Source: Sphingobacterium sp. SRCM116780
GTDB lineage: Bacteria > Bacteroidota > Bacteroidia > Sphingobacteriales > Sphingobacteriaceae
DNA: 64,000 nucleotides
Assembly (NCBI RefSeq): GCF_021442025.1
Contig: NZ_CP090446.1
Location: forward strand, 1,798,001-1,862,000
Direction: 5' to 3'
This document shows, piece after piece, positions 11,752-14,544 of this stretch; the stretch's first letter is position 1; each line of letters begins with the position of its first letter. Both the position numbers and the translations under genes were made by a program. The notes beneath the pieces were generated by a model. That model worked only from the letters and a program-made list of their open reading frames with translations, did no database searches and was not told the origin of the DNA.

Positions 11752-12366
11752 ATGTCACCCGAATCAATAGAAAAATTTAATAAACTAAATGAAATAGCAG
11801 CATCATATGATGCTTTGTTGTTTGATGTTGATGGAACTTTAGCCGATAATATGCATGCGCATAAAGCGGCTTATGTAGCTACTGCAGCTGAATATGGTGT
11901 TACTTTAGATGATCGTTTGATTGATGAAACTGCAGGCTGGCCTACTGTGGCTGTGGCTCAAGAAATCGGAATTCGCTATCAAAAAACTTTTGATGTAGTA
12001 GAATTTTCGAAACGAAAATCTACCATCTTTATCGAACGTTTTGTTCAACAAACGCAGCCTATTGATTATGTTGTTGAGCACCTAAAATTTCAAATAGGAA
12101 AAAAACGTATTGCAGCTGTATCAGGTGGTACCCGATCAACATTAACCATTACGCTAACTGTGATTGATGTGCTTGATAAATTAGAAACCTTGGTATGTGC
12201 AGGTGACACTCTCAATGGTAAACCTTCTCCTGAACCATTTTTATTAGCAGCAGAAAGATTGCAAATCGAACCATCAAAATGTTTGGTATACGAAGATGGC
12301 GAACCGGGTGTGCAAGGAGCTACCGCAGCAGGAATGGGATCTGTACGTATTGATCTGCTAGATTAA
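11752..12366 (+). CDS. HAD-family phosphatase (beta-phosphoglucomutase/YqaB-like)
   Basis: Haloacid-dehalogenase phosphohydrolase of 204 residues. Motif I is LFDVDGTLAD (about residues 22-31, nucleophile and acid Asp), motif II is AVSGGTRST, motif III Lys lies in NGKPSPEPFLLAAERL, and motif IV is VYEDGEPGVQGATAAGM. The cap is the small helical type inserted after motif I, so sugar phosphates are likely substrates. It follows the proline dehydrogenase gene by 42 nt and overlaps the convergent anti-sigma-like gene by 4 nt. Confidence 0.9.
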   Translation: MSPESIEKFNKLNEIAASYDALLFDVDGTLADNMHAHKAAYVATAAEYGVTLDDRLIDETAGWPTVAVAQEIGIRYQKTFDVVEFSKRKSTIFIERFVQQTQPIDYVVEHLKFQIGKKRIAAVSGGTRSTLTITLTVIDVLDKLETLVCAGDTLNGKPSPEPFLLAAERLQIEPSKCLVYEDGEPGVQGATAAGMGSVRIDLLD

Positions 12367-13724
12367 AAACTGGTAACAATTTTTAATCCGCCATTGGTAT
12401 AATTAAGATCGGTAGATTTGAGACCTCCAATGGGAAGTTTAACAAATGGTTCTACAGCGATTGATAATTTTGATCCTACTCCTATCTTCTTTCCAATGGA
12501 GAAGTTGACAAAACCGTTAAACTTATCGGTGCTGACAGAGTTTCCTTTAAAAGACTGCTTCACAGTTTCAGGAGATGAAACTACAGATTTATTATTGACA
12601 AATGAATCTTCGTTAATTCCGTCAACAAAATAGTTATCTTGTGTCTGGTTTACCACCCCCACATAAGATACACCCACTGATGTATACAATGATTTTGTAA
12701 CATGATAACGTACATCAACGGGTATGTCAACCGTCAACAATTTATTACTTACCCCACTTAAATCTTTATCTACTGTTTGTTTAGCTAATAAAAGTGATTC
12801 ATTATTTTTTGGTACTGTATTCTGTGCAATCGCATCATTGTAAGCCAAACTAGCTGACTGTACAGCACCTGGATTCGTTTGTCTATTTGCTCCTGCCCCA
12901 TATTCTTGCATCGATACACCAGATCGAATACTCACCTTATCGCTCACTTGGTAAGCCAAGCTTAAACCACCACCCAATCCAATTTTGTCAGCTGTAGAAG
13001 CAGGTGCAACAAAAGCGCCGACCTCCCATTTTTTCAAAGCCGAAGCAAAATCATGTTTCTCAGATTTTGAAGGATAAAGAGAACCTAATCGCGCTAACTG
13101 TTCACCTACAGACATCATCGTTTGATTTTCTTTCTTAACGGTTTCATTAAGCGCTGTATGATTGGGGTTGATTATTTCTTTTTTAGTTGAAACAACATTA
13201 TTCGGAACGGTTACATTACCAACAGTTATCTGTTTATTTTTATCACTTAAGCTAAAATTAGGATTGATACGAGGACTTACCAGATGTTCTAAGGACAAAA
13301 CATCTGTATTCGTCAAATGCTCAGTCTGATCCCCTTGTAAAATCTCCTGATCAGCTTGTTTAGCGATCGCAGCAATTGCAATATCACCTAAAAAAGAGTT
13401 TTCAGGTACTGATGTTGAAGTATCGATATCTGTTGTTATTGGTTCTACTTTTACATTTAGTGATTTCACATCAACAGTTGATGCCGTTTGAACAGGTAAA
13501 TCCAATGGATCATTTCCATGATTCAGGTAGAAAAACGAAGCACCCGAGATCAGCAATACAGCTGCGGCGGCACTCCAGTATTTCCAGTTTGATTTTTTAT
13601 TTCCGACAAAAGGGTTATTTTTTGACGCAAATCTTTCCCACGAACCTTCCTGATAAGGAAGCTCATGAGCTTTCAGTTTGTCGACAATATTGTCTATCAA
13701 TTCCCTATTTTTTTCGTTTGCCAT
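12363..13724 (-). CDS. Anti-sigma-like protein fused to an outer-membrane beta-barrel-like domain
   Basis: 453-residue protein with no classical signal peptide. The N-terminus (1-45, ELIDNIVDKLKAHELPYQEGSWERFASKN) is short and charged as in Bacteroidota anti-sigma partners, followed by one membrane segment (about 47-67, WSAAAAVLLISGASFFYL). A low-complexity linker rich in Thr/Val/Asn runs to about residue 215. The last 230 residues alternate in beta-strand fashion (VGAFVAPAST, GLGGGLSLAYQVSDKVSIRSGVSM, VDVRYHVTKSLYTSVGVSYVGVV, NFSIGKKIGVGSKLSIAVEPFVKLPIGGL) and resemble a small outer-membrane barrel. It lies 19 nt behind an ECF sigma gene and is probably its regulator. The topology is inferred. 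Confidence 0.7.
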   Translation of the reverse strand: MANEKNRELIDNIVDKLKAHELPYQEGSWERFASKNNPFVGNKKSNWKYWSAAAAVLLISGASFFYLNHGNDPLDLPVQTASTVDVKSLNVKVEPITTDIDTSTSVPENSFLGDIAIAAIAKQADQEILQGDQTEHLTNTDVLSLEHLVSPRINPNFSLSDKNKQITVGNVTVPNNVVSTKKEIINPNHTALNETVKKENQTMMSVGEQLARLGSLYPSKSEKHDFASALKKWEVGAFVAPASTADKIGLGGGLSLAYQVSDKVSIRSGVSMQEYGAGANRQTNPGAVQSASLAYNDAIAQNTVPKNNESLLLAKQTVDKDLSGVSNKLLTVDIPVDVRYHVTKSLYTSVGVSYVGVVNQTQDNYFVDGINEDSFVNNKSVVSSPETVKQSFKGNSVSTDKFNGFVNFSIGKKIGVGSKLSIAVEPFVKLPIGGLKSTDLNYTNGGLKIVTSF

Positions 13725-13743
13725 TGTACTTTACTACTTCTAT

Positions 13744-14349
13744 TTATTTAAATTCTTGTCTTATCGTATTTTGTTCCAAATAAAGCGTCCTTAACTTTTG
13801 CTTGGCTCTCGTCAGATAAGTACGAGAAGTACTATCGGGTATATTCAGTTGTTTTGCTATTTCATCATGTGAAAAACCTTCTATCTCATATAGATTGAAG
13901 ATAACACGCTGTAGTTCGGGCAATGCATGTAACAATTTTAGAATATCACTAACCTCTAAACTGCTTGAATTATAAATCATCGGAACCTGTAGATCACCTT
14001 CATTAACATCCTCTAAAGATGTCATATGTTTTTTTGAACGTAAAAAGTCAATCGAAATATTAGCGGCAATTCTACCTATCCAGGCACGAAATGATTTTTC
14101 TAAAACATCCTCCTCTACTTGACTATTAAAAGAATCTAATCGTTTAAAAACGCGAATAAATGATTCATTTGTTAGTTCTTCGGCATCGACATCAGATTTA
14201 ACATAGCGAATAATGATAGCCATTAAGTAGCCATAATATTTTTTATAGACAAAAGCTTTCCCTTGCTCACGATTTTGTAAACATTCTTCCAGCGCACGTT
14301 TAAGTGTTTGTTGTTTTTGTTTTTTAAAATATGTTTGAATAACGCTCAC
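13744..14349 (-). CDS. ECF-type RNA polymerase sigma factor
   Basis: 201-residue sigma-70 family protein. Region 2 spans about residues 28-100 (YGYLMAIIIRYVKSDVDAEELTNESFIRVFKRL ... FRAWIGRIAANISIDFLRSKK) and region 4 about 130-190 (LPELQRVIFNLYEIEGFSHDEIAKQLNIPDSTSRTYLTRAKQKLR, a helix-turn-helix). Regions 1 and 3 are absent, as in ECF sigmas. The neighbouring anti-sigma-like gene starts 19 nt downstream, which suggests a pair responding to an envelope signal. Target genes cannot be told from this window. Confidence 0.93.
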   Translation of the reverse strand: MSVIQTYFKKQKQQTLKRALEECLQNREQGKAFVYKKYYGYLMAIIIRYVKSDVDAEELTNESFIRVFKRLDSFNSQVEEDVLEKSFRAWIGRIAANISIDFLRSKKHMTSLEDVNEGDLQVPMIYNSSSLEVSDILKLLHALPELQRVIFNLYEIEGFSHDEIAKQLNIPDSTSRTYLTRAKQKLRTLYLEQNTIRQEFK

Positions 14350-14544
14350 TCAATAAGACTAATATTAATTCCCAATCTTTATCTAAAATAATACTTTCTA
14401 AACTAAGATTAGGAAAGTCTTTTTTCTAATTTTATCATGCTATTGATCAAGTACGTTGTCATAACGTGAGGATCGGATGAAACGCTACAGGTTCTCTACA
14501 TAAATATTATGAAAATTCAACCCTCATAAGTGCAAAAAAAAAGC

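Follow-up and report, generated by a model that had tools for sequence, protein, structure and literature searches.

The window analysed here, a stretch of 64,000 nucleotides from Sphingobacterium sp. SRCM116780, carries on its reverse strand an ECF sigma factor gene followed by the gene of a 453-amino acid protein which we predict to be an anti-sigma factor of the Dma type (Table 1). The open reading frames, their strand and their order are as stated in a preliminary description of the same DNA. The product of the first gene matches Sigma70_r2 (1.5e-11) and Sigma70_r4_2 (1.3e-17) in Pfam, and TIGR02937 (sigma70-ECF; 1e-25) in NCBIfam. Two further models, NF058625 (73.5 bits, cut-off 130) and TIGR02985 (82.1 bits, cut-off 126.4), are matched below their cut-offs. 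The end of the sigma gene and the start of its partner are separated by 19 nt, and the pair is neighboured by genes which, by eye, we take to specify a HAD-type hydrolase and a lysyl-tRNA synthetase. The host genome is a single contig of 4.28 Mb; the nearest named relative that was found is Sphingobacterium sp. B16, with 58% identity in the best segment.

Table 1. Features of the sigma/anti-sigma locus (positions in the window; residues are those of the 453-amino acid protein)
Feature	Position	Strand	Properties	Basis
ECF-type promoter TGTAGC-N17-CGTT (predicted)	14463..14489	-	-35 at 14484-14489, -10 at 14463-14466	
ECF sigma factor	13744..14349	-	201 aa, GTG start	Sigma70_r2, Sigma70_r4_2, TIGR02937
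Dma-type trans-envelope anti-sigma factor (predicted)	12363..13724	-	453 aa	ORF, upstream sigma gene, Dma-like layout
Cytoplasmic anti-sigma segment (putative)	13581..13724	-	residues 1-48	conserved Y-x-x-G-x-W-E motif
Inner-membrane helix, N-inside	13524..13580	-	residues 49-67	hydropathy and flank charge
Variable periplasmic tether	13032..13523	-	residues 68-231	no invariant column, length kept
Beta-barrel domain (predicted)	12366..13031	-	residues 232-453, C-terminal Phe	OMP_b-brl_2 in relatives, strand alternation

The two genes travel together. Using blastp, a relative of the window sigma factor (50-100% identity) was found directly 5' of the anti-sigma homolog in 31/31 genus loci, the window's own included, with a gap between the two genes ranging from -8 to +19 nt. 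A search of 79 genomes of the genus and the class revealed a homolog in all 47 of the other Sphingobacterium genomes searched, with its reading frame interrupted in two of these; outside the genus, one of 31 genomes of the class gave a weak match to the N-terminal part. At the level of the phylum, a profile of the genus alignment matched in 58 of 296 genomes, representing 33 of 139 genera, many of these matches covering the N-terminal part only. Among the 29 loci read from the phylum search, one of which is itself a member of the genus, the encoded protein has at least 400 residues in 23, and in 25 a relative of the window sigma factor is encoded directly upstream. By these matches the predicted design is widespread in the phylum. 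When viral contigs were scanned with the genus alignment no relatives were found.

The preliminary description had divided the 453-amino acid protein into a short cytoplasmic end, one membrane segment, a long flexible linker and a barrel-like C-terminal domain, and the pattern of conservation agrees with this anatomy. In an alignment of 20 genus sequences the mean column entropy is 1.56 bits for residues 1-45 and 1.57 bits for residues 227-453, against 2.69 bits for the linker. The C-terminal domain had been placed from residue 215 onwards; the domain itself is borne out, its boundary is not, as conservation begins nearer to residues 227-232.

At the N-terminus Y24, G27, W29 and E30 are invariant (20/20 in the genus alignment), and a Trp is found by eye at the place of W29 in all 29 of the phylum-search loci, many of which were found through their N-terminal match. 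Neither Pfam nor NCBIfam yielded a domain-model match to the N-terminus of the window protein. At 48 residues its cytoplasmic part is shorter than the Class I anti-sigma domain (ASDI), for which PMC7406223 gives a length of at least 50 residues (average 101) and an occurrence in 6% of Bacteroidetes ECFs. We infer that residues 1-48 would bind the sigma factor. Residues 49-67 make up the most hydrophobic segment of the protein (mean hydropathy 1.49; runner-up peak 1.13), and net positive charge is higher ahead of this segment than behind it. In 31/31 loci the main membrane segment is the strongest of the protein and begins at residue 44-53, second hydropathy peaks of at least 1.1 being present in three, and net positive charge is higher on the N-terminal side of the helix in 27 loci, equal in two and reversed in two.

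The linker is 133-186 residues long (mean 156, SD 13; 20 sequences), and not one column between residues 69 and 226 is invariant in this alignment. Ser is its leading residue (10.6%), followed by Leu, Asn and Thr, and one cysteine is present, in one of the 20 linkers. A variable sequence of steady length, set between N- and C-terminal domains which are kept, would be expected of a tether.

The C-terminal domain is likely a beta-barrel, an assignment which derives from matches in relatives and not in the window protein, where Pfam and NCBIfam gave no significant match and the gathering score of PF13568 (OMP_b-brl_2) was not reached. PF13568 is matched at E ≤ 1 by 10 of 20 family members, the best at 5.7e-9. 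Eight members were scanned singly, of which three exceeded the gathering score, three fell below it and two had no match. Among eight distant relatives from the phylum three pass PF13568, one of them passing PF13505 (OMP_b-brl) as well, and one is without a match; the PorT/SprT and TDE1717-type barrel models of NCBIfam are also matched in distant members, far under their cut-offs. The last residue is Phe in 31/31 genus loci. Hydrophobic strand alternation averages 0.595, compared with 0.438 ± 0.046 for shuffled sequences, and exceeds every one of 1000 shuffles (highest 0.591). Eight strands can be read by eye from the genus alignment, and the connectors between them, likewise judged by eye, are alternately short (about 260-263, 341-346 and 412-419) and longer (242-249, 276-327, 361-401 and 432-440), the pattern expected of a barrel whose two termini both lie in the periplasm. 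The OMP_b-brl_2 matches in relatives, the C-terminal Phe and the strand alternation together point to a location in the outer membrane. A second Dma-like protein is encoded in the same genome, and hhalign matched the barrel alignment to its C-terminal part (93%, E 3.2e-7). A search of PDB sequences with the genus alignment returned two matches (E 0.7 and 0.76), which were judged to be chance.

This order of parts is that of the Dma family, described in PMC13088901 as an anti-sigma domain, a transmembrane helix, a long disordered tether and a C-terminal barrel; the sigma gene, of group ECF21, lies beside the Dma gene or, in Dma3, is fused to it. By the layout of its parts we liken the window pair to this published family: the adjacent ECF sigma gene is constant in the genus loci, hydropathy alone points to the transmembrane helix following the N-terminal part, and the length of the linker and its lack of invariant columns are consistent with a long disordered tether. 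With Dma1/Dma2 and Das1/Das2 of Bacteroides thetaiotaomicron (Pardue et al., PMC13088901) the pair shares the predicted layout of its parts, the adjoining ECF sigma factor and the phylum Bacteroidota. The predicted targets differ, those of the window pair being FKBP-type isomerase and other lipoprotein genes, whereas nigD1 is described for Dma1, and the operon of Dma2 itself and PULs for Dma2. According to the same report vesicle output rises when Dma2 is lost, but only if its sigma factor, Das2, is present.

A similar arrangement was described for M0N98_03760/03761 of Phocaeicola vulgatus (Evans et al. 2022, PMC9308784), which likewise comprise an upstream sigma gene and a trans-periplasmic anti-sigma factor with a predicted outer-membrane barrel. 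There the sigma gene was induced along with its regulon, whereas here the regulon is predicted only. The inducer was BcpT, a toxin thought in that paper to perturb the envelope; treatment raised the expression of the sigma gene 33-fold and that of three NigD (putative lipoprotein) genes strongly, and in the mutant 15 genes were changed and the O-antigen was lengthened (PMC9308784). As reported for Bacteroides and Phocaeicola in PMC13088901 and PMC9308784, loss of such an anti-sigma protein frees its sigma factor. PMC9308784 also names EcfO and its anti-sigma factor of Bacteroides fragilis (Ndamukong et al. 2013) as a similar pair; there the link is to oxidative stress.

It had been proposed from the window alone that one chain would reach from the sigma factor to the outer membrane. 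Conservation, the OMP_b-brl_2 and OMP_b-brl matches in relatives and the Dma layout all favor such a chain; the element of surprise attached to it is gone, as papers of 2022 and 2024 had already described the design. A reading of the protein as a novel architecture was dropped, the Dma papers describing the same design. The design is a real and uncommon one, but already published. What is new here is a conserved promoter together with a regulon prediction comprising lipoproteins and foldases.

The predicted promoter has its first base 140 nt ahead of the start codon of the sigma gene. TGTAGC-N17-CGTT occurs just once in the 64-kb window, against an expectation of 0.05 sites. Upstream of the sigma gene TGTAGC-N17-CGT is present in 28 of 32 genus loci. 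The four which lack it have just 70-199 nt of upstream sequence and were set aside, because the promoter sits 51-240 nt upstream in the other loci; all 28 with more than 200 nt (shortest region kept, 207 nt) carry it. The -10 box reads CGTT in 25 of the 28, and one locus included among the 28 has CGTC in place of CGTT or CGTA. Any other spacing from 10 to 24 nt is found in none or one of the 28 loci. Upstream regions of 24 distant loci were also examined, 16 of which were long enough (at least 180 nt): two have TGTAGC-N17-CGT, two TGTAAC-N16-CGT and twelve neither. TGTAGC-N17-CGT is built like an ECF promoter; in F. psychrophilum, too, a CGT box at -10 has been attributed to ECF factors (PMC9723704). 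The natural reading is that the sigma/anti-sigma pair is autoregulated.

Elsewhere in the genome of the host, the motif is found 62 nt before the gene of an FKBP-type prolyl-isomerase lipoprotein (FKBP_C, 7.3e-7 in Pfam), which has matches in 47 of 48 genus genomes. In 27 of 30 loci the FKBP operon is preceded by the sense-strand motif at spacing 17, and in 23 of these 27 an FKBP-lipoprotein-like ORF starts 55-72 nt downstream of it; the antisense motif at spacing 17 was seen in 0/30 loci, and other spacings in 0-5 loci. As the FKBP query was picked for its motif in the host genome, the proportion without that copy is 26/29. Overall counts for the host genome are barely above control (3 vs. 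1, and 6 vs. 4 sites). The sigma operon and the FKBP operon are its only target-like loci; the remaining sites, located within or close to other reading frames, were not counted as targets.

An unselected comparison was made between every TGTAGC-N17-CGTTA site (40) and every occurrence of the backwards pattern (30) in the same seven genomes, these being the first seven listed; some of the 40 sites are mutually orthologous and the counts are thus not independent. A lipoprotein gene is located downstream of 13/40 motif sites vs. 0/30 control sites, two further proteins which by eye are lipoproteins missed by the lipoprotein pattern being excluded from the 13. Sites outside long open frames number 23/40 for the motif (17/40 lie inside) and 5/30 for the control, and those which are non-coding with an ORF start 38-160 nt downstream number 19/40 and 2/30, respectively. 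Across 48 genomes there are 243 motif sites vs. 126 for the backwards pattern, indicating that about half of the motif sites are chance occurrences. A first batch of 20 sites, chosen by eye for AT-rich spacers, was kept out of these counts. Ten downstream proteins, six of them from this hand-picked batch, were scanned against Pfam and eight gave matches: DUF4397 (four), FKBP_C, Serpin, CpsB/CapC and a glycosyltransferase (one each). Literature searches in the library used found no earlier report tying a Bacteroidota anti-sigma factor to FKBP or lipoprotein genes, none, as judged by title, linking TGTAGC with an ECF sigma factor in Bacteroidota, and none of this promoter or regulon under Sphingobacterium, anti-sigma and outer membrane.

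It is likely, in our opinion, that the pair constitutes an envelope-stress switch of the Dma type, the regulon of which supplies lipoproteins and foldases. In this scheme the N-terminal segment of the 453-amino acid protein would hold the ECF sigma factor at the inner membrane, a single helix would cross that membrane, the flexible linker of about 160 residues would cross the periplasm, and the BAM machinery would insert the C-terminal barrel into the outer membrane. Should the outer membrane, or the process by which its proteins are assembled, be disturbed, the barrel end would not be inserted, or would be pulled, bound or cut, and the anti-sigma end would then release the sigma factor. Once freed, this would transcribe its own operon from TGTAGC-N17-CGTT together with the set of lipoprotein genes, and the FKBP-type prolyl isomerases among the latter would aid the folding of envelope proteins. 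In the Proteobacteria, RpoE/RseA/DegS similarly answers outer-membrane protein stress with foldases and lipoproteins; there a separate protease reads the unfolded porin tails, whereas here the anti-sigma chain itself would bear the barrel. We infer that the signal may be a disturbed outer membrane or disturbed assembly of its proteins. Such assembly is a better guess for the trigger than other signals because of the foldases among the predicted targets and the presence of the homolog throughout the genomes searched.

The same anatomy could serve another end, with the barrel acting not as an assembly gauge but as a receptor for a specific ligand such as a surface glycan or a toxin. The authors of the Dma2 study propose the sensing of a glycan (PMC13088901), and the two longest and most gapped connectors of the window protein (about 276-327 and 361-401) would be surface loops. 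We regard a dedicated receptor as possible but rather doubtful, since foldases and lipoproteins, and no sugar-use locus, are predicted as targets, and a homolog in 47/47 other genus genomes fits a general function better.

A stress switch with this regulon also presupposes that TGTAGC-N17-CGTT is read by this sigma factor. Another ECF sigma factor might read it instead, leaving the lipoprotein and FKBP genes outside the regulon of the pair: the site also precedes another ECF-like sigma gene, identified by eye, in two genomes (loci L115 and L116), and ECF regulons may overlap, as in F. psychrophilum (PMC9723704). Against this, the motif accompanies all 28 sigma operons of this kind whose upstream region exceeds 200 nt and is missing from the 300-nt upstream regions of the four other ECF sigma genes examined in the host genome; related forms precede the pair in four of the 16 distant loci. 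Positive autoregulation is, in addition, usual for ECF factors. Assignment of the motif to a sister factor therefore seems improbable, and it is presumably the window sigma factor that reads it.

Were the C-terminal domain a soluble periplasmic beta domain, the protein would span the inner membrane only. The window protein is without a barrel-model match; hhalign linked the barrel alignment to none of four plain OMP_b-brl_2 proteins encoded in the host genome (probability at most 2.9%); and AlphaFold, given two sequences (the window protein and one genus relative), returned unusable models with a mean pLDDT of 28.2 at full length and 30.0 for the barrel only. These observations would suit a soluble domain, yet we consider one very unlikely in view of the OMP_b-brl_2 and OMP_b-brl matches in relatives, the invariable terminal Phe with strong strand alternation, and the eight strands, the connectors of which are, by eye, short at one end of the barrel and longer at the opposite end. 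Least credible of all is surface signaling of the FecI/FecR kind, in which a separate TonB-dependent receptor would bring the signal and the barrel would be incidental, for although FecI/FecR pairs are common in the phylum, Pfam gave no FecR match to the window protein or family members, no receptor gene adjoins the pair as far as its neighbours can be judged by eye, and the barrel is conserved as much as the anti-sigma end.

Little is understood of the way in which Bacteroidota sense outer-membrane damage, and even for Dma2 the signal is described in PMC13088901 as not known. As a candidate switch of the Dma type the Sphingobacterium pair, present in every genome of the genus that was searched, with an exactly spaced, conserved promoter and a small set of predicted targets, could provide a simple reporter outside the gut Bacteroides. 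It poses the question of whether a self-sensing barrel may control the foldases that help to assemble the envelope.

The genome of Sphingobacterium sp. SRCM116780 encodes a second Dma-like pair, in which the ECF sigma gene overlaps that of a 399-amino acid partner possessing a transmembrane-like segment and an OMP_b-brl_2 domain above the cut-off (29.1 bits). The last residue of this protein is leucine. The TGTAGC promoter was not found in the 300 nt searched upstream of its ECF sigma gene. Another ECF pair in this genome includes a 418-amino acid partner, the C-terminus of which, judged by eye, seems to be carboxypeptidase-regulatory-like and TonB-like in place of a barrel. The main anti-sigma gene shares 4 nt with a convergent gene (window 12363-12366), the overlap falling at the stop codons of the two.

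Coordinates of the additional pairs and of the convergent gene
Feature	Location	Strand	Remark
Second Dma-like pair	L069:2883-4660 (about G000:C1:3559382-3561159)		Own genome
Another ECF pair	L066:665-2486		Own genome
Convergent gene	window 11752-12366	+	HAD-type hydrolase by eye

Of the 47 genomes of the genus with an FKBP match, 40 carry two or three FKBP-type lipoprotein genes, most of them adjacent to one another (loci L135-L164); these foldases form a small family that has expanded. At six of its 40 sites in seven genomes (L165, L173, L178, L186, L199 and L204), the predicted promoter motif, TGTAGC-N17-CGTTA, lies within the coding region of genes that look like members of one conserved family. 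Its recurrence there may reflect conservation of the coding sequence itself or a promoter inside the gene. At two further loci, in two genomes (L115 and L116), it is located 72 nt upstream of another ECF-like sigma gene, the gene type being judged by eye; the regulon may therefore take in a further sigma factor, unless the promoter is one that different sigma factors share.
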